Of a stretch of 28,049 nt of DNA, positions 8,124 through 26,443 are shown piece by piece (the stretch's first letter is position 1; each line of letters starts with the position of its first letter). This DNA is from a virus. The DNA is taken from the IMG/VR virus record IMGVR_UViG_3300049024_000085, positions 1 through 28,049 of that record. One strand, written 5' to 3'. The position numbers and the translations under genes are program-made. A model generated the notes under the pieces. That model saw nothing but the letters and a program-made list of their open reading frames with translations, was not told the origin of the DNA and did no database searches.

Positions 8124-9353
8124 TTATCCCGCGGCGGTACCGATGATGCGGCACGCCCATTCCGGGCGCAACGCTTCGATCCCGTACAGCACGTCCAGGC
8201 GGCACATGAAATCATCGTTCACGGTGTCGAAATCCCGGATCAGGCGGATCGCCATGCCATCCATGTTCTGGCGGCTGGCCATGTCCACGCCCCGGGGCAG
8301 CTCCAGATCCGCCATGGCCAGGGTGAGGAAATCCGAATGATACAGGAGATTCTGCTTGTACCCGGTCGAAGCCGAGCCCACCAGCGTGAGCGCATCGGTC
8401 GAAACCGGCGCGCTGTTCACGTTCTGATAGGGGCCGGTGATGATGCAGGCGGGGCTGATCGAGAGGGTCAGCGCGCCGGCGCCGTCGGCCGTGGCATCCG
8501 CCAGGATCGTGAACTGTTGCAGGTTGCCGGTGCTCTGCTTCGTGTCCGGGTTGACCGAATACACGGCGGGCAGGGTGAACACCGTTCCGGCCTTCAGGGT
8601 CGTGGAGGCGGTCCACGCGGCGGTGATGAGGGATTGGGAGGCGGCCCAGCCCGTGGTCACCTGGTTGGCGCCGTTGACGGTCGGAGAACCGGCTTGGAGG
8701 CCATTGGTGTGCAGCGGGATATTCTGGGTCATGAAGAAATCGGCGCCCAGGGTGTCGGACGCCAGCATGCCCTTGCGGTACTGCGAAGCGAGCTTCCCGG
8801 GATCGTTGAACAGGGCGGAAAGCCCGTTCGCGGTGCGGGCCATCGCCAAGGGCGAAAGGGCCGCATAGCGATCGCCGTCACGCGGCGCGCAGAATTCGTC
8901 CAGGCGCGCGCCGGCGTCCAGCCACACCTGCGCGGTCGCGGGGATGGTACCGGCCGAGCCCACCAGGTTGGCCACCTTGTAGTAGTAGCCGGCGCAATCC
9001 TTGTCGATTTCCGACGCGAGGCGCTGCACGGGGCCCTTGATGTAGCGTTCGGAGAACTCTTCCATCTTCAGGGTGAGATCGGCCGAAGAGAACTTCAGGC
9101 CGACGTGTTTTTGCGTGGTCACGTTCAGGGTGGTCTGGGTTTCCAGCGCATCCTGCTGCACGAAGGTTTTTCCCGTGCTTACGGTGAACTGCACCGGCCG
9201 ACGGATGCGCAGGGCCGATCCGATCTTGGCGCCGTTCTTCGCGAAGGAAGAATCATATTGACGGTTGATGGTCTTGGAAAACTTGATCTCATTCCGGAGC
9301 CGGCGGAGGGCTTCCTTGGTGATGAGGTCTACGGTGAGCTGCGTGTTGGACAC
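8124..9353 (-). CDS. Major coat protein, P22 gp5-like (409 aa)
   Basis: I chose GTG 9353 because TGGAGG lies five bases upstream; an alternative GTG at 9380 adds nine residues. The protein begins SNTQLTVDLITKEALRRLRNEI and ends with MCRLDVLYGIEALRPEWACRI plus a short tail. This matches the P22 coat family, in which an N-terminal arm and spine helix open the protein and a CRI-x-x-x-YG-x-x-A-x-RPE segment closes it. Length is close to P22 coat (430). A Thr/Ser/Val-rich region about residues 210-330 would correspond to the inserted I-domain. Several hundred copies form the HK97-fold icosahedral shell on the scaffold. Its 3' end is partly duplicated at 14224-14273. Confidence 0.88.
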   Translation of the reverse strand: MSNTQLTVDLITKEALRRLRNEIKFSKTINRQYDSSFAKNGAKIGSALRIRRPVQFTVSTGKTFVQQDALETQTTLNVTTQKHVGLKFSSADLTLKMEEFSERYIKGPVQRLASEIDKDCAGYYYKVANLVGSAGTIPATAQVWLDAGARLDEFCAPRDGDRYAALSPLAMARTANGLSALFNDPGKLASQYRKGMLASDTLGADFFMTQNIPLHTNGLQAGSPTVNGANQVTTGWAASQSLITAAWTASTTLKAGTVFTLPAVYSVNPDTKQSTGNLQQFTILADATADGAGALTLSISPACIITGPYQNVNSAPVSTDALTLVGSASTGYKQNLLYHSDFLTLAMADLELPRGVDMASRQNMDGMAIRLIRDFDTVNDDFMCRLDVLYGIEALRPEWACRIIGTAAG

Positions 9354-9410
9354 GGCAACCTCCAGCGGTTCAGGTTTCACCCGTAACCGCGGAGGTGCGT
9401 CTCCTAGCAG

Positions 9411-10367
9411 TTACCGGCGGTTCTTCTTCCGCTCCTTCTGGTCCATATACTTGGCGTATTCCTCCATGCTCATTTTCGAGGGATCCTTTACCGCTTGTGC
9501 CTTCCCGCCTACTGGAGTCATCGGCGCGGGAGCTTTGGAAGGCTTCGCATGTAAAGGAGGTTCCGGGGGCTTCTTCTTGGGAGCGGGGCCTTTCGGCGCG
9601 GCTTCCAAGCGTCCCACCACTTTTCCTATCTCAACCGCCACCTCGTCGGCGGGGAGCAGGGCGATCCGTGCTGATTCGTTCGGGTGCTTGCCAAGCCAGT
9701 ACGCTAACTCGGCCCCGGATTTGTTCTTCAGGACCAGTTGGACCATTGCATCGGAAACCATGAGGTTCGGATTGTTGACCACCTGGTCGAAATCCGAATA
9801 CTTGGCCTTTGCTGCGGTCTCCTGTTCCCGGTATGCCTTCACTTTAACCGGGTCCACCACCGGCTGTCCATTCGCACCCTTGGGGCCGTTGGGGCTGGCG
9901 GGTTGCTTGGGGTTTTTTTCCGCCGCGGCGCGCTCGCTTTTGATCTGGCGCCAATCGTAGAGCGCGTCTTCGTACTCCTCGTCCGTGTCGAAGTCGGCAT
10001 GCTTGGGCCGCGGAGGAAGCGGCGCCGGCGGGGGCTTGGTCTGTTCCAAAAGCTGCCGGTTCATATCGAGGAGCTGCTGCATCTGCGCGCGCTGCTCGTA
10101 AATCGTCGCGGTCAGCTTGTCGATGCGGCGCTCGGCGCCGGGCTTGCGGTGGCCTTTCGCCGGCGGCGCCTGATCGCCTTCTTCTTCTTCCTCGCCGTCG
10201 GTTTCGTCGCCGTCCCCGTCGCCTTCTTCGTCCCCTTCGCCGTCGGCGTCCTCTTCGTCGCCGTCGGCCTCCTCGCCGGCGGGCGCTTCTTCTTCGTCGC
10301 CGGCCTCCTCGTTATCGGGGGTTTCTGGGATTTCCATGTCGGCGGCTTCTTCGGCTTCGATCCTCAT
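9411..10367 (-). CDS. Scaffolding protein (318 aa)
   Basis: ATG 10367 overlaps the portal stop as ATGA. Residues about 1-65 are extremely acidic (long runs of Glu, Asp and Gly). Residues 80-115 form a likely coiled coil (IDKLTATIYEQRAQMQQLLD). The middle is helical and charged, and the C-terminus is a small basic helix (KYMDQKERKKNRR). P22 scaffold (gp8, 303 residues) is similarly helical and polar and binds coat through a basic C-terminal helix-loop-helix. Together with the order portal-scaffold-coat, this makes the call firm even without detailed sequence identity. It would direct procapsid assembly and leave before or during DNA packaging. Confidence 0.82.
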   Translation of the reverse strand: MRIEAEEAADMEIPETPDNEEAGDEEEAPAGEEADGDEEDADGEGDEEGDGDGDETDGEEEEEGDQAPPAKGHRKPGAERRIDKLTATIYEQRAQMQQLLDMNRQLLEQTKPPPAPLPPRPKHADFDTDEEYEDALYDWRQIKSERAAAEKNPKQPASPNGPKGANGQPVVDPVKVKAYREQETAAKAKYSDFDQVVNNPNLMVSDAMVQLVLKNKSGAELAYWLGKHPNESARIALLPADEVAVEIGKVVGRLEAAPKGPAPKKKPPEPPLHAKPSKAPAPMTPVGGKAQAVKDPSKMSMEEYAKYMDQKERKKNRR

Positions 10368-12685
10368 GCGGGCTCCTCTTCGGCCGGTTCCGGGGGCGGC
10401 ATGCCCTCGGGGATTTCCGGCGGTTCATTCTCCGCGGGCGGCGCGGGTTCCGGGGGCATTGGCGCCCCATCCGGGGCCGGGGGCGCCCCTTCGGGTCCTG
10501 AAGCCGGGACAGGGCCGGGAAGGTCCCCGGGGGCGGGCGCGGCGGCGCCCCCCTGCCCCGGCATGCTTTGGAGCTGCATTTCCGCCATGGTCATGCGCAT
10601 CCATTCCAATTGCGTGGTGAGCTGTTCAATCTGCCCGAGGATTTCCGGGGACGGCGCAGCGTTGAGCTGCGCGATCTCCAGCTTGGTCTGGGAGTCGAGG
10701 TACGCCTTCTCGCGGTCCAGGTCGATCTTGGCCTGGTCGCTCTTGGTCTTGTCCTTTTCCTCGTTCAGCGCCGCGGTGAGCTGATCGATCGTTTGGTTCA
10801 TCACCTGCACCTGCTGCTGCATGGCGGCAAGCTGCTGGGTCAGCACCGGCACGGTGGCCTTGCCGTCCTTATCGTCGCCCGGGGCTTTGCCCAGAATCTC
10901 GGGCGGGATCGTCCGCTCCAGGCGATCGGCGAGGTCTTGCATGCCGGGGCCGTCGATGTTCCGAAGGATAATATCCCCGCCGATGTCCATCAGCTTGGGG
11001 TTGGCCTGCACCATTTGGGTTTGGATGTCGGCGGCTTCCTGGCGCTGCGCGGCGTAGGCCGGGCCCATGGATACCACCACGTCATATTCCCCGACGGAGA
11101 GATCGTACATCACCTGCTCGCCGGTCTCGGGATCCTCGAAGGGGTGATTAAAAAGAACCAGCTCCTCGTCCCCATTTTCCCCGAGGATGCGGGCCACGCG
11201 CGCCTCGTCGTACACCTGGCGGATCAGGTCCACACAGATCCGGCCGCAATGCCGAATGGAGCGCGCCAGGTTGTCGATGTAATGGAAGGTCGCGGTGTCG
11301 CTTTCGCTTTGCCGGCGCTGGATCGCGATGCCGGATTTTTCCGGGCCGCGGTCGCCGAGGCCGGCCGAGTAAATGCCCGTGGTCGCCTTCATATCGTCGC
11401 GGGCGGAAAGACGGGCATTCACCACGCCGGCGGGAGGCCCGGCAAAGGGCTGGCGCTGCGGAGGCGGCGCGAGCTGGCCGCCCAGGGTCACGGGCTTGTA
11501 TTCCAGGGCCGCGATATTTTCCACGTGGGAGCGTTCCCAAGCGGCGGGGTCCGCGCTCCCGCTGATCTGGCCCTCGGCCGCGATCCACGGGGCCTTGGGC
11601 GCGAGCGCGATCATTTCGGTTTCAGCCGTCCACCAATAGTTATACATCCGCTGGGGGTCTTTAGCGTTCCGGACCAGGCCGTAATACTTGGTTTCCCCTT
11701 CGATATGCAGCTCTATGCCCAGCACGGGGATGATCGGGATCCATCGGCCGGCCCATTCGCCTTTTTCCAAAATCTCGGCGCCGCTGATCTTGAACCACTT
11801 CACCACGCGCCTATGGCTTTTGCGCTTCTTTACCAGCTTGTAGCCGGCGGGAATCTTCCCCCCCGGCAAGGTGTCGCGGAATGCTTTGATTGTCGGCGGT
11901 GGTTGCTGGCCACCCTCCGGCGCCGGCGCTCCGGTATATTGCAGGAGCAGCAGCTCGGCCGGGGTTTCCTCCACGGTCCAATATTCGGCCACCTTGACGG
12001 TGTTTTCCCCCCACCACGTTTCGTCGGTGTCGCCTTCGCCGGTCTCGCCCCATTCGGTTACCTGCGCATTGGGCCAGCTCTCCCGGAACTCCTCCCGCGG
12101 CATGTCTTCCGTGACGAAGCACCACCGCATATCCGAGAAGTCCGCTTTCTTGGCGGGCCCGGTGTACACGGCGAAGCGGTTCGCGATCCGCTCGATAAAA
12201 ATATCCTGGTCGAAACTTTCTTCATTGCAGTAATCGGTCCGCACGCGGAAAAAGCCAAGGCCAGAAATCACCGCGTCATTGAAGGCGGTATCATAGGCCA
12301 CGTCCGCGGAGCTGTTTTGCTCGATATGGCGTATCAGCCCTTGCAGCTTCTCGGCGGTCTTCACGTCGGCCTTGGAGTCGAAGGGCCGCACGCGGATGGA
12401 GGGTTTATTTTGCCGCTGCTCGTTCGTCACCTGGAAAACGTATTGCGGGAGCATGTTCACGGTGAGGCATGGGCGATCGGAGTCATCCCGATCCTTTTCA
12501 ATGTCGCCATCCCATTGCTTGCCGCCGTAAAAGCGAATATCGTCCAGGGCCTCGGCGCGGTCGCCGCTCCAGCGGTCCACCGCGGACTTGAAGCGGGTCC
12601 GGGCCAGATCCATGAGCGCGCGATCTTCGTCGCTCACCTCGGCCGTGGTTTCCGGTTCATCTTCGTACTGCGTTAATTTGCTCAT
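10364..12685 (-). CDS. Portal protein, P22 gp1-like (773 aa)
   Basis: The start is ATG 12685, which overlaps the terminase-nuclease stop as ATGA; a GTG nine bases upstream is less likely. Length is near P22 portal (725). The N-terminal 120 residues include ARTRFKSAVDRW, YGGKQWDGD and RPCLTVNMLPQYV, a pattern typical of the P22 portal family. A wing/stem region follows, with DKGPEKSGIAIQRRQSE-like Gly/Gln/Arg segments near residue 440. Residues about 600-700 are Gln/Glu-rich coiled coil (QQLAAMQQQVQVM), corresponding to the long barrel of P22, and the last 80 are Pro/Glu/Ala-rich low complexity. Twelve copies form the ring at one vertex through which terminase packs DNA and onto which gp4 docks. 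Confidence 0.9.
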   Translation of the reverse strand: MSKLTQYEDEPETTAEVSDEDRALMDLARTRFKSAVDRWSGDRAEALDDIRFYGGKQWDGDIEKDRDDSDRPCLTVNMLPQYVFQVTNEQRQNKPSIRVRPFDSKADVKTAEKLQGLIRHIEQNSSADVAYDTAFNDAVISGLGFFRVRTDYCNEESFDQDIFIERIANRFAVYTGPAKKADFSDMRWCFVTEDMPREEFRESWPNAQVTEWGETGEGDTDETWWGENTVKVAEYWTVEETPAELLLLQYTGAPAPEGGQQPPPTIKAFRDTLPGGKIPAGYKLVKKRKSHRRVVKWFKISGAEILEKGEWAGRWIPIIPVLGIELHIEGETKYYGLVRNAKDPQRMYNYWWTAETEMIALAPKAPWIAAEGQISGSADPAAWERSHVENIAALEYKPVTLGGQLAPPPQRQPFAGPPAGVVNARLSARDDMKATTGIYSAGLGDRGPEKSGIAIQRRQSESDTATFHYIDNLARSIRHCGRICVDLIRQVYDEARVARILGENGDEELVLFNHPFEDPETGEQVMYDLSVGEYDVVVSMGPAYAAQRQEAADIQTQMVQANPKLMDIGGDIILRNIDGPGMQDLADRLERTIPPEILGKAPGDDKDGKATVPVLTQQLAAMQQQVQVMNQTIDQLTAALNEEKDKTKSDQAKIDLDREKAYLDSQTKLEIAQLNAAPSPEILGQIEQLTTQLEWMRMTMAEMQLQSMPGQGGAAAPAPGDLPGPVPASGPEGAPPAPDGAPMPPEPAPPAENEPPEIPEGMPPPEPAEEEPA

Positions 12686-13419
12686 CGCATCCACCCTCCG
12701 CGGCCACGGCCCAGGGGCTTGGCCTTTCCCCGGTTTTCTTTTTCGACGGGCTTCACGATCATCCGCCCCAAGCCCGACATGATCAGGTAGCGGGTCGCGT
12801 CCATGAGGTGGTCATCGTCTTTGACAACGGCGCCGTGTTCATCGCGCCTGTAGATTCTGTATTCCGCCAGCCAGTTTTTCAACGAACGGAAGACCTTTAG
12901 CCTACCGGAACTCAACCGCTCCCAAACCTGTTGAATGCCGGCCTCGCGCGAATTGTCCGCGCATTCCAGGTTTAACCCAAGGTCTTTATAGATCTCAAGT
13001 AACCGCTGCCCATCAACCTGGGAACGGCCGCGGGCCGCGGGATCGATCACGCCGGGGATCCACAGGCCGCGCGCCTTGAAGCCTTCCGCATGCACGGAGG
13101 GCTCGGCCTGGCCGCGGTAATGCTCCGAAGTCAGGTAAACGACGTTCGCCTCGCGATCGTGCGCGCCCCATATGCCCGCGGTCCGCTTCCATCCCACGTC
13201 CATGCCGAAGCCGCGCGGAAAATGCGACGGGATCGGGAAGTCATCCACCACGATGTCGCTTTCAGGAACGGGATAGATCGCGCCAATGCCGAGGGTCGGC
13301 ACGCCCTTGCTGCGCGCTTCGCGTTGGTACGGAGGCACCGATCCCCACAGGTCCGCCTTCTGCTTTTTGGTGAGGTGCGGAACCTCGTCCCAAGTACATG
13401 AGACCACCTTTTTGGACAT
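12682..13419 (-). CDS. terL: Large terminase, nuclease (C-terminal) half as a separate gene (245 aa)
   Basis: This gene encodes only the RNase H-like nuclease domain of a large terminase. Residues 8-60 (CTWDEVPHLTKKQK, then PPYQREARSKGVPTLG and IYPVPESDI) correspond to the linker after the ATPase domain. Catalytic acids are visible as D74 in FGMDVGW, D126 in GVIDPAARGRSQ, and D207 with H204 in DDDHLMDATRYL. No Walker A or B motif is present. It has its own ATG, 3 bases after the stop of the Dam-like gene, and is coupled by ATGA to portal. The matching ATPase half is about 2.6 kb upstream at 16001-16753. The two products would have to associate to make a working motor that cuts concatemeric DNA. 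Confidence 0.88.
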   Translation of the reverse strand: MSKKVVSCTWDEVPHLTKKQKADLWGSVPPYQREARSKGVPTLGIGAIYPVPESDIVVDDFPIPSHFPRGFGMDVGWKRTAGIWGAHDREANVVYLTSEHYRGQAEPSVHAEGFKARGLWIPGVIDPAARGRSQVDGQRLLEIYKDLGLNLECADNSREAGIQQVWERLSSGRLKVFRSLKNWLAEYRIYRRDEHGAVVKDDDHLMDATRYLIMSGLGRMIVKPVEKENRGKAKPLGRGRGGWMR

Positions 13420-15721: not shown

Positions 15722-16008
15722 TACCGGCCGCCGTATGCGAGGCGGATCAGGGCCTCGTCAGCCTTGGGCGTGATCTCCTCGGGGATGGACCGGGCCAGGT
15801 GCTCCAGGCTTTCCGCTTCCTCGCGGAGCTGGCGCGCGCGGTTGCGGAGCGCGGCACGGCCGCCGAGCCCGTACTTCGTCATTTCCGGGGCTATATCCAT
15901 ACCGAACGTCATCCCGGGGCCGGGGCCCACGGCCGCGCCGATCCCGTGCATGTTTGCCATGCTTTCGCCTAATGCCGTTTTGATCTTCGCGTGGTCTTCC
16001 TTACACAT
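15721..16008 (-). CDS. Hypothetical protein following terminase ATPase gene (95 aa)
   Basis: ATG 16008 overlaps the end of the terminase ATPase gene by eight bases, so translation is probably linked. A Gly/Pro/Met-rich first half (GIGAAVGPGPGMTFGMD) precedes a charged helix (LRNRARQLREEAESLEHLAR). No family recognised. It occupies the position where the nuclease half of the terminase would be expected to continue. Confidence 0.6.
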   Translation of the reverse strand: MCKEDHAKIKTALGESMANMHGIGAAVGPGPGMTFGMDIAPEMTKYGLGGRAALRNRARQLREEAESLEHLARSIPEEITPKADEALIRLAYGGR

Positions 16009-16753
16009 CGTCTATCTCCTCGGCCTCTTCGGCCGTATCGGGTTCGGGGGTCGGCTCCAGGAACGATTTCACCATTTCGCTGAAGCCAAGCAAAGGGGTG
16101 AAGGTGGTCAGCACGATCCCGTCCGTGGTCATGGTGCGCAAAACGCATTCGGCATGCACCTTGATCGGCGGCTCCTCGTCTTCCCATATGAAATGTTGGG
16201 CCGTGCCCTGGAAGGACAGATCGCCCTGGTCGTAGCTCTTGAACTGCCCGCGGCTCCACTTGCCCGTGGGCTTATGCCGCACGTAGAAGATGTCCACGGC
16301 CTCGGGCGTGCCCGCCTTCGGCCGCCAGCCGCCCAGGGCCTCGGCCGGCAGAAAGCCCGTTCCGAAATGGTTCCATTGGCCCAGCAGCTCGGTTTGGCAA
16401 ATGTCGCGGGTGGTCTTCGCGTCTTTCCCGGCGATCCAGCACTTCACGGGGCCCGGGAATTTCTTCCCCTCCCACCAATGCGGATAACGCCCGGTCATAT
16501 GGCAAACGGTTTCATAAGCGCCGGCCTGGGTCTTGCCCACCCGGTTGGCGGCCATGAACAGGCGCTCCCGGTGCTCCTCACCCTCGCGGAATAATTCCAT
16601 ATGTCGCGGGTACAGCTCACGCCGATACGGCCCGGTATCGGGGAAGTAGGTCTCGAACAGGTTTTTTTGTCGGTACGCCAGCTCGGCCTGCACGGCCGCG
16701 AGGGCAACGGGGATTTCCTCCGGCCGAAGGTTCGCGAGATCCTGGTGGTTCAT
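16001..16753 (-). CDS. terL: Large terminase, ATPase (N-terminal) half as a separate gene (250 aa)
   Basis: ATG 16753 overlaps the methyltransferase stop as ATGA. The product carries the whole packaging-motor ATPase domain: the terminase-type Walker A AANRVGKT at residues 68-75, Walker B HFIWEDEEPP at 187-196 with the catalytic Glu, and coupling motif TTFTP at 216-220. After the coupling motif and a FSEMVKSFLEP segment the protein ends with an acidic tail (DTAEEAEEIDDV) and a TAA. Usual large terminases continue here into a nuclease domain of about 230 residues. In this window that domain is a separate gene at 12682-13419. Length (250) is therefore about half the usual 450-500. The N-terminal FETYFPDTGPYRRELYPRH segment fits the P22-type relatives of this family. 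Confidence 0.88.
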   Translation of the reverse strand: MNHQDLANLRPEEIPVALAAVQAELAYRQKNLFETYFPDTGPYRRELYPRHMELFREGEEHRERLFMAANRVGKTQAGAYETVCHMTGRYPHWWEGKKFPGPVKCWIAGKDAKTTRDICQTELLGQWNHFGTGFLPAEALGGWRPKAGTPEAVDIFYVRHKPTGKWSRGQFKSYDQGDLSFQGTAQHFIWEDEEPPIKVHAECVLRTMTTDGIVLTTFTPLLGFSEMVKSFLEPTPEPDTAEEAEEIDDV

Positions 16754-17442
16754 AGGGCCATGGCCCCCTGCCCCATCCGGCGCGCGGTCACCTCGCAATA
16801 GCGTTCCTCGATCTCGATCCCGATTGCGCGGCGTCCTAGATCTTTGGCGGCGCGTAGCGTGGTACCGGAGCCTGCGAACGGATCCAGGACCAGGCCGCCC
16901 GCCGGCGCATGCTTTTCGATCAGGTACTTGAGGAGCGGGATCGGCTTTTCGGTCGGGTGCTCGCGCGAGCTGCCCACCGGGGGGAACCCCTTGATTACGG
17001 CGCCATCCCTGCGCCCTGCAATCGGCCGGCGTCCATGCGCACCGAACAGGATCACCTCATAGTCCCGAGAATATTCCATTTCCGTATCGCCCATGCCGCC
17101 CCGGTCCTTATGCCAGATCAGCCCGGACTTGATTGGAAAGAGCGCGCTGCAGGCGTCGTAAAAATCGGGCCAGCTCTCCCAATGGCAAAAGACGAGGGCG
17201 TGGGCGTCGGGCTTCATGCGCTCGCCGGCGCAGAAAAGGACTTGCCGCGCCACGCGCACGCCCTGCCGGGCCCCGTCCGCGCGCACGTTGGCCTTCGCCG
17301 TCATCACGCCGGCGCCGGCGAACTGCTGGCCATAAGGTGGATCGGTCAGCACCAGGTCCACCTCGTCGGCCAGGTCGGGCAGCACGTCGCGCGCATCGCC
17401 ATGGTACAGGGTCACGGCCTCGTCCTGGTAATACGGCTTCAA
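16750..17442 (-). CDS. Beta-class DNA amino-methyltransferase (230 aa)
   Basis: I chose TTG 17442, which overlaps the preceding stop as TTGA and gives KPYYQDEAVTLYHGDARDVL; the longer upstream frame is Arg/Pro-rich and overlaps the zinc-protein gene. The catalytic DPPY motif is at residues 34-37 and the S-adenosylmethionine-binding DPFAGSGTT at 187-195. That order (catalytic motif first) defines the beta class, whose members make N6-methyladenine or N4-methylcytosine. A REHPTEKPIPLLKYLI segment precedes the cofactor motif, as usual. It would modify phage DNA. It is directly coupled to the terminase ATPase gene, and a different methyltransferase family lies next to the terminase nuclease gene. 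Confidence 0.85.
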   Translation of the reverse strand: MKPYYQDEAVTLYHGDARDVLPDLADEVDLVLTDPPYGQQFAGAGVMTAKANVRADGARQGVRVARQVLFCAGERMKPDAHALVFCHWESWPDFYDACSALFPIKSGLIWHKDRGGMGDTEMEYSRDYEVILFGAHGRRPIAGRRDGAVIKGFPPVGSSREHPTEKPIPLLKYLIEKHAPAGGLVLDPFAGSGTTLRAAKDLGRRAIGIEIEERYCEVTARRMGQGAMAL

Positions 17443-20766: not shown

Positions 20767-21537
20767 TCAGGCCGCCAGGGGCAGCCGGGGGTAATCGTCA
20801 TGGGTCCGGCCGTCGAGCACGTGGCCGGCCGAATCGGGACGGTAGCCGCCCCATTGCTTGTGAAGGTAGGCCGTGCCGAAAAAGGCGCATTGGTCGCGCA
20901 GGGCCCGGACCCAATCGATCCGGTCTTCCCGCGGAACCCACCGCGAGCCCACGCGCATGGCCAGGGCGCGCTGCTCGGCGATCACGGGGTCGGACAGGTG
21001 CCGGCCGGACTCCCCGCCGGAAATCAGCCATTGGATGCCCGACAGGTCCAAGGTCAGGGGGGACAGGAGCGGCTCCGCGGAGACAAAGCGGATTTCCGCC
21101 TCGATCTTCTTCAGCACGTCGAGCCGCACGGCCGTGGCCTGGTTCTCGATCGTCACCCCGATCCAGAAGTTCCGCGGGAGCTTGCGCCGGCGCGAGTAGC
21201 GCAGGGCGTTGGCCGGCCGCTTGGTCAATACCTGGTATTCGTGGGGGGTGGCCTCGATCACGTCGAGCACCTTGTCGCGCTCCTCGTCGGAGACCGCATC
21301 CCAGAAAAAATCACTCATCGAATTGACGAAGATCAGGGCCGGCTTCTTCAGGGCCTTGGGTTCGCGCAGCTTATGGGGCCGAAGGGTCAGCTCGAAGCCG
21401 CGGGGGAAGGCGGGCGATCCGCGCTTCCCCTCGGCCAGGGTCTCGGCATAGCAGTACCGGCAGCCCGGGGAAACGCGGTCGCAGCCGCTCCAGGGGTTCC
21501 ACGTCTTTTCCGTCCACCGGATCTTGGTCTCGTTCAC
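20767..21537 (-). CDS. Phage Gp37/Gp68-family (DUF5131) protein (256 aa)
   Basis: GTG 21537 directly follows the TAG of the upstream gene. The N-terminus has TEKTWNPWSGCDRVSPGCRY followed by C-Y-A-E, so Cys19, Cys26 and Cys29 form the three-Cys signature of the Gp37/Gp68 family; in related proteins such cysteines suggest an iron-sulfur cluster and a radical-SAM-like barrel. Later segments (PALIFVNSMSDFFWDAV, EYQVLTKRPANAL, WIGVTIENQ, VSAEPLL) match the conserved blocks of this family. Length is typical. The reaction is not established. It lies in the accessory stretch and is coupled to small genes without predicted function. Confidence 0.82.
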   Translation of the reverse strand: MNETKIRWTEKTWNPWSGCDRVSPGCRYCYAETLAEGKRGSPAFPRGFELTLRPHKLREPKALKKPALIFVNSMSDFFWDAVSDEERDKVLDVIEATPHEYQVLTKRPANALRYSRRRKLPRNFWIGVTIENQATAVRLDVLKKIEAEIRFVSAEPLLSPLTLDLSGIQWLISGGESGRHLSDPVIAEQRALAMRVGSRWVPREDRIDWVRALRDQCAFFGTAYLHKQWGGYRPDSAGHVLDGRTHDDYPRLPLAA

Positions 21538-23473: not shown

Positions 23474-23715
23474 GCCGGCTGAAGGTCGCGCGGCGGCTTC
23501 GCGGTGGCCAGCTCCGGCGGCACGGGGATGCCGTTCCGGCGCAGCAGCTCGGCGATCTCCCACTTGGGGATCCGGCGCGGGCCGCGCTCCAGGCGCGTGA
23601 ACCGGAGGCGCCCCATGTCGCACCAGGCGATGATCGTTTGCGGCGACACGCCGCAATAGCCGGCCGCCTCGCCGGTGGTCAATTCGTCAACGTGGTGCAT
23701 CAGCGGGCGGCTCAT
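23470..23715 (-). CDS. Excisionase/MerR-like helix-turn-helix protein (81 aa)
   Basis: The sequence DELTTGEAAGYCGVSPQTIIAW (read in parts) followed by GRLRFTRLERGPRRIPKWEI is a winged helix-turn-helix of the MerR/excisionase (HTH_17) type. It starts at ATG 23715, overlapping the upstream stop by four bases, and its stop overlaps the ParB-like start. It probably binds DNA as a regulator; an excision role is less likely with no integrase in the window. Confidence 0.75.
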   Translation of the reverse strand: MSRPLMHHVDELTTGEAAGYCGVSPQTIIAWCDMGRLRFTRLERGPRRIPKWEIAELLRRNGIPVPPELATAKPPRDLQPA

Positions 23716-24080
23716 CTGCGCGTCCCTCCTCCAAAAATAGTACGGGTAACGCGGAAGTTACTACGGGTCCCGGCGCGCTTCAGGATGCGCAGGGGCGCGG
23801 GCCCGAACTCTTTCCACAGGTGGCAAATGATCTTAAACCGCTCGGACACGGGGCCTTTCACATCTTCATAAACGCGGCGGCCCGCTTCGATGTAGTCGAA
23901 ATCGGTTTTAAAGTTGACGCCTGGTACCAAGTGTACCACGGTCTGCTCGCGCAAGTCTTTGATTTTGCCGGCCTTCTGTAAACCGTCTAACTCTTTAGCT
24001 CGCGCGCGCTCGGCTCCGGAATCATAGACCCGGTGCAGGTTTCGTCTTTTCTTGATTGGGCCTATCTTCTTTTCCAGCAC
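23712..24080 (-). CDS. DUF1064-family, PDDEXK-like nuclease candidate (122 aa)
   Basis: The pattern YDSGAERARAKELDGLQKAG, then REQTVVHLVPG, NFKTDFDYIEAG and VYEDVKG is that of DUF1064 phage proteins, which are predicted PDDEXK-fold nucleases related to Holliday-junction resolvases. Candidate active-site residues are E24, D60 (or D62) and E72-x2-K75. The C-terminus is basic. It starts at ATG 24080, five bases after its upstream neighbour. A role in phage recombination or concatemer processing is an inference. Confidence 0.75.
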   Translation of the reverse strand: MLEKKIGPIKKRRNLHRVYDSGAERARAKELDGLQKAGKIKDLREQTVVHLVPGVNFKTDFDYIEAGRRVYEDVKGPVSERFKIICHLWKEFGPAPLRILKRAGTRSNFRVTRTIFGGGTRR

Positions 24081-24084
24081 AGAC

Positions 24085-24423
24085 TTACCCGATTTTCCTC
24101 GGCTTGAGCTGTAAGGGCTCGCCGGCGATCTGGGTCATGTCGCCGGCGCGGTTGACTAGATATTTCCGGCCGCCCTCTACTTCCACGATTGATCCGGGCT
24201 TGTTCATGAGCACCACGCGTTGACCAGGAAACTTGGCCTCCAGGGCCTTGACCGCTTCGCGCACGGCGCGCTCCACGTCCCGGCCGCGGGCGCCGGTCAT
24301 GCCCACCTCCGTGGCCACCTGGGCATAATCGATCTCAATCCGCCGGCCGTTCCCGCGCATGCGAAGATTGCCCGGATCGGGTGCGCGGTGGATCGGGCCT
24401 TTCGGCCGGTGACCTTGGCTCAA
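24085..24423 (-). CDS. Hypothetical protein (112 aa)
   Basis: TTG 24423 overlaps the upstream stop as TTGA; an internal ATG (MRGNGRR, 21 residues later) is an alternative start. The first 25 residues are basic and Pro/Gly-rich. Then comes a helical and strand segment (DVERAVREAVKALEAKFPG, VVLMNKPGSIVEVEG). No family recognised. Confidence 0.55.
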   Translation of the reverse strand: MSQGHRPKGPIHRAPDPGNLRMRGNGRRIEIDYAQVATEVGMTGARGRDVERAVREAVKALEAKFPGQRVVLMNKPGSIVEVEGGRKYLVNRAGDMTQIAGEPLQLKPRKIG

Positions 24424-24593
24424 AAGGTGGTCCCCCTATTGTCCGGGTTGAAGGCATGCTCGAAGGCCGCGGCGTCGGCCGGGCTCCCCTCCCCTACCAT
24501 ACACCAGCGCCGATACATGGCCAGCAGCAGTAGCGCCGGCCACGCCATAAGGCCCACGGCCGCGCCGAGGAGAAAGGCGGAAAGGGCGCTCAT
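24420..24593 (-). CDS. Single-pass membrane mini-protein (57 aa)
   Basis: ATG 24593 lies 35 bases after the tRNA gene. The protein starts MSALSAFLLGAAVGLMAWPA and continues hydrophobic to residue about 30 (LLLLAMYRR), then is soluble and mixed-charge. It may be a membrane anchor or holin-like peptide; nothing more can be read. A longer frame upstream crosses the tRNA and is not used. Confidence 0.55.
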   Translation of the reverse strand: MSALSAFLLGAAVGLMAWPALLLLAMYRRWCMVGEGSPADAAAFEHAFNPDNRGTTF

Positions 24594-24628: not shown

Positions 24629-24702
24629 TGGTTGCGGGAGCCGGATTTGAACCGGCGTCTCCAGGGTATGAACCTGGCAAGGGACCGCTCCTCCATCCCG
24701 CG
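24629..24702 (-). tRNA. tRNA-Met (CAT), initiator-like, CCA encoded
   Basis: The minus strand folds into a complete 74-nt cloverleaf: 7-bp acceptor stem, 4-bp D stem, 5-bp anticodon stem, 5-bp T stem with TTCAAAT loop, and an encoded ACCA end. The anticodon is CAT. Three bacterial initiator features are visible: an unpaired C1-A72 end, A11-T24 in the D stem, and consecutive G-C pairs at 30-40 and 31-39. The third of the usual three pairs is A29-T41 instead of G-C. The D loop is short. A phage-carried initiator tRNA is possible; an elongator tRNA-Met or tRNA-Ile2 is less likely because those pair position 1 with 72. It is close upstream of genes that would follow it on the same transcript. Confidence 0.85.
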
Positions 24703-25301: not shown

Positions 25302-25322
25302 AAGGGCTTTATGCAAGCCCTT
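25302..25322. repeat. Perfect 8-bp hairpin overlapping the sRNA promoter
   Basis: AAGGGCTT (25302-25309) pairs exactly with AAGCCCTT (25315-25322) around a 5-base loop. Its right end overlaps the first bases of the -35 element of the candidate promoter at 25321, so it could be an operator or a terminator remnant for the upstream side. Confidence 0.45.
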
Positions 25323-25348
25323 GACTTTCATTCGGCGCGTGTTAGATT
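25321..25348 (+). promoter_or_regulatory. Putative sigma70-type promoter for plus-strand sRNA
   Basis: TTGACT (25321-25326) and TAGATT (25343-25348) are separated by 16 bp, with GT before the -10. Five of six and four of six positions match the bacterial consensus. It is the only plus-strand promoter in the window that is followed by a good terminator and no protein gene. Confidence 0.5.
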
Positions 25349-25354
25349 ATGGAA

Positions 25355-25441
25355 AGCGAAAAGGGATTCCGAGGCGCCAGGGAACGCTTGAAAACCTTTC
25401 GATTACAACGAAAAAGCCGGGATTTTGCCTCCCGGCTTTTT
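25355..25441 (+). ncRNA. Candidate small RNA, about 87 nt, plus strand
   Basis: From a start near 25355 (seven bases after the -10) a transcript would end in a textbook Rho-independent terminator: AAAAAGCCGGGA (25411-25422), a 7-base loop, then TCCCGGCTTTTT (25430-25441). The 5' half can form AAGCG/CGCTT (25354-25358 with 25384-25388) continuing into TTCC/GGAA, with an unpaired AAAAGGGA bulge. Between the two hairpins is a single-stranded linker that contains CCTTTCG, which complements Shine-Dalgarno sequences of this phage such as that of the Dam-like gene (TCGAAAGG). No open frame with a plausible start lies in it. Expression is not proven; the position in a noncoding gap on the strand opposite to all genes supports a regulatory RNA. 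Confidence 0.5.
25411..25441. terminator. Bidirectional Rho-independent terminator
   Basis: A perfect 12-bp inverted repeat, AAAAAGCCGGGA and TCCCGGCTTTTT, with a 7-base loop. Both strands show a GC-rich stem followed by at least five T. It would end the plus-strand sRNA and could also stop minus-strand transcripts coming from the right-end genes. Confidence 0.8.
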
Positions 25442-25563
25442 CATTTGTGCCCGCGCTTACCCGATACCCCTCCCGCGGTTTTCAATAGATGTCCACAACG
25501 CCCGTGGATAGGGCGTCCCTGGTGCGGATGGATAGGAAAAGGACGCGCGCCCCTCCGTGGAAA

Positions 25564-25719: not shown

Positions 25720-26256
25720 TCAATTTCGCACGCTTCCCGATAGGTAAGGCTCCGAGCCAGGACCATTCCAAATGGTGATAAATCCCGTACCGCCTTTATC
25801 GTCAAGGGCTTGCACCAACTTGGTGGAGAGGGACCCGAGGATCCAATCATATGCCCGCCGCTCGCGCCCGACCAGCAGGCAGCCCTCGGAATCGGCTGGC
25901 CGGTTGCCCCCGTGCAATAGCACCCCATCGAAGAAGGGCACGTCCAACAGGAGCGGGAGCCGCTTCCCGAAATGCGGGGAATTGTACAGCTTGACCGCAT
26001 AGCGACCGGCCGGGATGCACGTTTCCCCGGGCAGCTTCAGGCCGAAGGGCCGGAGCTGGTCTTCGAGGGTCCACCCCCATGGCTCGTCATCCACGATCAG
26101 GTGGCCGCGCGTCGCGCCGCGGCTGAAGAGGGTCCGCAATACCAGGATTTCCACGCCCTGGGCGGCGCTAGGCAGGCCAAGCGTGGCCAGGCGTAAGGAT
26201 ACCGGGGTAGGGGAGGGGCCGAGCGTCAACGGGCCGGGAAAGGCTTCAGGGGCCAT
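25720..26256 (-). CDS. DUF5675-family protein (178 aa)
   Basis: I chose ATG 26256, which overlaps the upstream gene by 11 bases; a longer frame is not supported. From residue about 36 the DUF5675 pattern is clear: [59 protein letters not shown] (H115), and SEGCLLVG (Cys126). The conserved His, then Ser and Gly-Cys, recalls L,D-transpeptidase active sites, but the short spacing means an enzymatic role is only a suggestion. Residues 1-35 are a Pro/Leu-rich extension. Length is typical for the family plus this extension. Function is not established; phages often carry it near lysis or tail genes. Confidence 0.75.
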
Positions 26257-26443
26257 CGAAGCCGCCTTCGGCCGGCGACCAATCCGGGGGCGCCTCGCCC
26301 AGCTCCGAGGCAAGCCATACCTCCCCGCATAGGGGACAGGTGGCCACGCCGGCATTTTTGTACCAATCGAAGACCAGGCCGGCGGTATGCCGGCAGGGTT
26401 CCGCGGGGCGGGGTCGGATCAGCTTGCGCAGGGAATCCAGCAT
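26246..26443 (-). CDS. Small CxxC protein (65 aa)
   Basis: ATG 26443 has GGAGG six bases upstream. Residues 15-40 contain a C-R-H (Cys17, His19) and, 16 residues later, a C-P-L-C pair ([20 protein letters not shown]), enough for a zinc site. The N-terminus is basic. Function unknown. A weak minus-strand promoter (TTGATC, 18 bp, TAGGAT) could lie in the 67-bp gap upstream. Confidence 0.62.

Follow-up and report, generated by a model that had tools for sequence, protein, structure and literature searches.

A functional-looking phage initiator tRNA with an anticodon-loop variant enriched in viruses

The window analyzed here, a stretch of 28,049 nucleotides, is an IMG/VR virus record of 28,049 bp, a linear piece to which no host genome is joined. 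It carries what appears to be a functional phage initiator tRNA gene, the anticodon loop of which is a variant that is enriched in viruses: it reads UUCAUAC, with U32 and C38, instead of the canonical initiator CUCAUAA (Table 1). C38 sits at the A38|C39 bond, the known VapC cleavage site in tRNA-fMet. CUCAUAA is the usual loop in cells, but it may not be required. Initiator-type tRNAs are already known and annotated in phages; the informative feature of this gene is its altered anticodon loop, which is missing from a first-pass annotation of the same DNA.

Table 1. Features of the window, with the evidence on which each assignment rests.
Feature	Position	Strand	Evidence
Initiator-type tRNA-Met(CAT), 74 nt, encoded CCA	24629..24702	(-)	ARAGORN; Rfam RF00005; position parse
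Anticodon loop UUCAUAC (tRNA positions 32-38); U32 and C38 replace canonical C32 and A38	24664..24670	(-)	Sequence; loop tally
57-aa ORF with hydrophobic N-terminal stretch, directly downstream of tRNA	24420..24593	(-)	Sequence reading
Phage gene, PHROG 190 (Holliday junction resolvase class), downstream side of tRNA	23712..24080	(-)	PHROGs E 1.2e-11
DUF5675 / PHROG 1501 gene, other side of tRNA	25720..26355	(-)	Pfam E 1.5e-21; PHROGs E 2.6e-11
P22-type coat gene	8124..9380	(-)	PF11651 E 4.4e-45
P22-like portal gene, types the virus	10364..12694	(-)	PF16510 E 3.3e-181; PHROG 156
Terminase large subunit, nuclease ORF	12682..13419	(-)	
Terminase large subunit, ATPase ORF	16001..16798	(-)	
DUF5131 / PHROG 2045 protein, function unknown	20767..21537	(-)	E 9e-74
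Candidate small RNA	25321..25445	(+)	
Three small Cro/C1-type HTH regulators in tandem, at contig end	27024..28047	(-)	

ARAGORN, run on the whole window, returned exactly one tRNA, a tRNA-Met(CAT) on the minus strand, and the Rfam RF00005 match spans 24632-24702 (54.6 bits, E 2.4e-9). Both confirm the tRNA with CAT anticodon and encoded CCA proposed in the first-pass annotation, which gave no strand. The position parse likewise bears out the two initiator marks named there, C1xA72 (that is, no Watson-Crick pair at 1-72) and A11-U24, and G2-C71 and C3-G70 are present as well; C1xA72, G2:C71, C3:G70 and A11:U24 form the formylation set described, together with the role of the three G-C pairs (3GC), in PMC7949028. 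As had also been noted, the anticodon stem (A29-U41, G30-C40, G31-C39) retains two of the three initiator G-C pairs, the inner two. This reservation probably has little weight, since A29-U41 is common among viral-contig initiators, being found in 69 of the 120 among the matches listed (full 3GC only in 28) and also in 33 of the 51 listed copies that lie within 1 kb of a contig end.

The nearest E. coli tRNAs show 79.2% identity over all 74 nt; 5375 of 5426 genomes contain them, at a median of 4 places each. These presumably correspond to the four initiator genes metZWV and metY, indicating that the match to initiators is not due to chance. The window tRNA and E. coli tRNA-fMet of the metZWV/metY type are alike in C1xA72, G2-C71, C3-G70, A11-U24, the CAT anticodon and the encoded CCA, and differ in U32 and C38, A29-U41, C21 and in the length of 74 nt, which results from a shorter D loop (7 nt) and variable loop (4 nt). 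The C at position 21, replacing the usual A21, could make for a weaker tRNA core. The minimum-energy fold of the window tRNA as plain RNA is not the cloverleaf, which is common for unmodified tRNAs and does not count against the gene. The sequence features support an initiator-type tRNA, and neither elongator Met nor Ile2, the identities that a tRNA finder was to be checked for, is supported. No support was obtained, on the other hand, for the earlier suggestion that an extra initiator serves the many GTG, TTG and overlapping starts of the phage: a CAU initiator reads AUG, GUG and UUG alike, and the start codons in the ORF list are mechanical.

We then tallied the loops of 120 viral-contig initiators, the matches listed of at least 120, using proximity to a contig end as an imperfect stand-in for a host copy. 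Among distinct sequences, non-canonical loops are found in 20 of 62 initiators beyond 1 kb of a contig end versus 2 of 37 within that distance (Fisher p 0.0022). Considered by itself, position 38 is altered in 9 of these 62 versus 1 of 37 contig-end copies, a difference that is not significant among the matches listed (p 0.085). Within the same matches, the positions that are invariant in 24 distinct contig-end initiators and most changed in the 62 others are 26 (17), 32 (16), 38 (9), 37 (7) and 44 (6), with deviations from the host-invariant set also at position 21, and position 38 is altered only where position 32 is altered too (9/9). A second set, on another backbone and comprising at least 119 viral stretches with 38 other than A (100 of 119 analyzed, the remainder including earlier loci), contains many C32 tRNAs with C38 or U38; the substitutions at 38 in the 100 analyzed are C, U and G, and changes at 32 or 37 frequently accompany them.

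By pattern searches, the U32/C38 loop is common among predicted initiator tRNAs of viruses and almost never seen in those of cells. The U32/C38 initiator pattern is present in 78 viral contigs, in all cases as a called CAT tRNA (60 distinct). One genome each of 84,980 species yielded 22 stretches, 3 of which are not tRNAs, leaving 19 genes in 18 genomes, and 15 of these 18 genomes also hold a canonical initiator. Of 299 Pseudomonadota genomes, 213 have the backbone irrespective of its loop (212 of 298 without the chosen center), and U32/C38 was found in the chosen center and in 1 of the 298 others, the latter in a tail-gene context. None of the 298 drawn Pseudomonadota genomes (the backbone being present in 212) showed a residue other than A at position 38 on the TGGAG backbone, against at least 119 such stretches in viral contigs, and all the Pseudomonadota matches listed read GCTCATAACC except the center's own prophage copy. 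A position 38 other than A is seen in 9 of 62 viral initiators (among the matches listed) versus 0 of 212 cellular ones (p about 1e-6), a comparison to be taken with care because it rests on two different patterns. Searches for the variant only gave 0 of 147 Bacteroidota genomes beside the chosen center and 0 of 148 Actinomycetota genomes.

The genome copies in Comamonas, Bacteroides pyogenes and Mesorhizobium have at least 6 kb in common with viral contigs. Six of the nine genome-copy contexts examined are phage, with portal, coat and terminase genes (G035), tail and baseplate genes (G222), a transposase and 6.2 kb in common with L195 (G028), a terminase (G017), an integrase (G026) or 6.1 kb in common with L221 (G033); the other three (G021, G022, G024) are without phage assignment. 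In the Comamonas copy, the tRNA has a P22-type portal gene on one side and a coat gene on the other, of the same gene family as in the window.

On the evidence of their stems, the U32/C38 tRNAs look like altered but working initiators. In 60 parsed U32/C38 tRNAs (59 viral and that of the window), every stem pair except 1-72 is intact in 51-60 of its 53-60 readable cells. Most stem positions show several kinds of pair, many of them compensatory, and 1-72 is unpaired in 43 of 53. The 30-40 pair, which the pattern does not constrain, is G-C in 60/60, while the pairs fixed by the search patterns (11-24, 12-23 and 31-39) were left out of the evidence. Furthermore, the 32.38 pair is Watson-Crick in 0 of 87 distinct tRNAs in which 38 is not A, compared to 4.9 expected if the two positions were independent.

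The replacement of a host initiator cut by a nuclease is the likeliest role that these sequences suggest. VapC of Shigella and Salmonella is reported in PMC4105405 to cleave tRNA-fMet between A38 and C39. Our preferred reading, which we hold with slightly less than even confidence, is that the window gene is a phage-owned working initiator with U32/C38, supplied to replace nuclease-cut host tRNA-fMet. Under this reading, a VapC-type nuclease, for which A38|C39 is the known bond, would cleave host tRNA-fMet in its anticodon loop, and the phage would supply its own initiator after infection, so that phage translation could still start. The change at 38, together with that at 32, would remove the sequence that VapC cuts, and the loop would keep a non-Watson-Crick 32.38 pair with which initiation could still work. 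The gene would also have to be expressed, its product to resist cleavage and the phage to benefit. Phage tRNA-Tyr and tRNA-Lys are reported to restore infection against the tRNA-cutting defenses retron-Eco7 and PrrC170 (PMC11555353), and extra metZWV to partly relieve VapC toxicity (PMC8522696). The nuclease-insensitive phage tRNAs of van den Berg et al. 2023 (PMC10264068) resemble the window tRNA in having anticodon-loop changes near a nuclease site.

Several observations speak against nuclease escape. Many phage initiators keep CUCAUAA, including 11 of the 20 copies read from named phages picked by hand from listings, two of them from mycobacteriophages. Position 26 varies as much as position 32, which fits relaxed constraint, and nothing in this analysis indicates that any known anticodon-loop nuclease needs position 26. 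In addition, phages of VapC-LT2 hosts generally avoid tRNA-fMet according to PMC10264068, whereas the window virus carries the initiator itself, in altered form; against the avoidance described there, the counts obtained here suggest that at least many phages carry tRNA-fMet, some of it altered. The literature searched yielded no report on whether C38 blocks VapC.

The main competing explanation is that the gene is a spare copy under relaxed constraint, which adds dosage late in infection and whose loop drifts since translation in a single cell relies on it only briefly, the loop change having no special role. The deviations from the host-invariant set at 26, 44 and 21 are in agreement with such drift, as are the existence of many loop variants instead of one and the many phage copies that are canonical. 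Speaking against drift are the intact stems bearing compensatory changes and a uniform G30-C40 pair, the recurrence of the U32/C38 loop on 60 distinct viral backbones and the avoidance of Watson-Crick 32-38 pairs; we regard the spare copy as rather unlikely, if far from negligible.

A broader version of replacement after nuclease attack, to which we give only tentative credence, less than to its application to the window gene, would have phages maintaining an initiator class of their own, remade at 32 and 38 with every initiation mark kept, as a nuclease-proof start once the host cuts tRNA-fMet. A virus-enriched initiator class altered at 32 and 38 was not found in the PMC literature searched. 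Initiation is the only step required by all genes of a phage, and toxins are known to attack host tRNA-fMet. Should viral initiators prove to be altered at precisely the host cut site, position 38 would be a readable signature of conflict, and the question of why phages carry tRNAs would, if this is true, get a clean test involving one RNA, one bond and one substitution. The loop sequence could also serve annotators as a simple rule for distinguishing phage initiators from host copies that mark attachment sites.

Two further explanations assign the loop another role. It is improbable that U32/C38 acts by changing P-site pairing and so biases the tRNA toward particular start codons or starts: codon-anticodon strength during elongation is reportedly tuned by the 32-38 pair (PMC6720975), but one loop is common to very different phages. 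Marginally less probable again is an escape from some other effector on the initiator loop, be it a non-VapC anticodon-loop nuclease or a modification enzyme. The several substitutions at 38, often accompanied by changes at 32 or 37, appear as if more than one recognizer were being avoided; however, AtaT, another effector that hits the initiator, targets the charged methionine rather than the loop (PMC7180214). Finally, a leftover host initiator at a prophage attachment site, as the first-pass annotation had contemplated, would fit the 51 of 120 listed viral-contig initiators within 1 kb of a contig end but is most improbable here, given that 3,347 nt separate the gene from the contig end, that phage-type genes flank it, that a 20-nt stretch of its 3' part occurs only once in the window (the far genome end lies outside the contig), and that single copies within 300 nt of a contig end have CUCAUAA in 35/35 cases (24 distinct, among the matches listed).

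Comparison with named phages shows that tRNA-Met or tRNA-fMet genes of Justusliebigvirus phi92, Caulobacter CcrSC, Mycobacterium Myrna and others are likewise of initiator type and located inside the phage genome, the phi92 loop being UUCAUAU versus UUCAUAC in the window. Ochrobactrum POI1126, Mesorhizobium Cp1R7A-A1, Pseudomonas PaMx74 and CBW1004C-Prop1 have an initiator-like tRNA with the UUCAUAC loop, as in the window, on backbones other than that of the window tRNA; in PaMx74, POI1126 and CBW1004C-Prop1, no tRNA is annotated at this locus. The closest tRNA found, on a 116 kb IMG/VR phage contig (L230), has the D arm, loop and variable loop of the window tRNA, with a compensated 7-66 pair (A-U to U-A) and other changes that keep G-U pairs, but its 1-72 is CxU and, unlike the window gene, it has no encoded CCA. 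On that contig (1833-2390), this nearest initiator tRNA is directly followed by a tmRNA gene and an array of tRNA genes. The exact 18-nt start of the window tRNA gave no match as a query, and the D-arm pattern was found among viral contigs only in L091 and L192, with no match in genomes. These two contigs represent a Mu-like phage from two metagenomes, with a near-identical D arm, the same loop and proteins unrelated to those of the window virus.

The proteins encoded in the window identify it, by profile and sequence similarity, as a fragment of a P22-like podovirus. Scaffold, head closure and terminase genes were matched in profile searches in addition to portal and coat, and the nearest named portals, including those of Rhodoferax phage P26218, EBPR podovirus 1 and Xanthomonas phage PBR31, are 35-43% identical. 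No tRNA was found in four named P22-like relatives, and 61 portal relatives from viral contigs have none of the window type, with only tRNA-Arg in three and tRNA-Pro in one. The terminase large subunit is apparently encoded in two pieces: separate ATPase and nuclease ORFs lie 2.6 kb from each other, and an adenine methyltransferase gene and several small ORFs occupy the interval, whereas the four named relatives have one annotated terminase ORF each.

Around the tRNA gene, a search of the minus strand for a sigma-70 promoter found none. The 57-aa ORF, for which no Pfam or PHROG match was found, is possibly cotranscribed with the tRNA, and a neighboring 112-aa ORF used as query returned no relatives. 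The candidate small RNA, of about 90 nt, has no Rfam match at threshold; it presents a promoter-like TTGACT-16-TAGATT with TG, a strong terminal hairpin with a T run and a fold z-score of -3.2. The tandem Cro/C1-type regulators at the contig end suggest a temperate phage.
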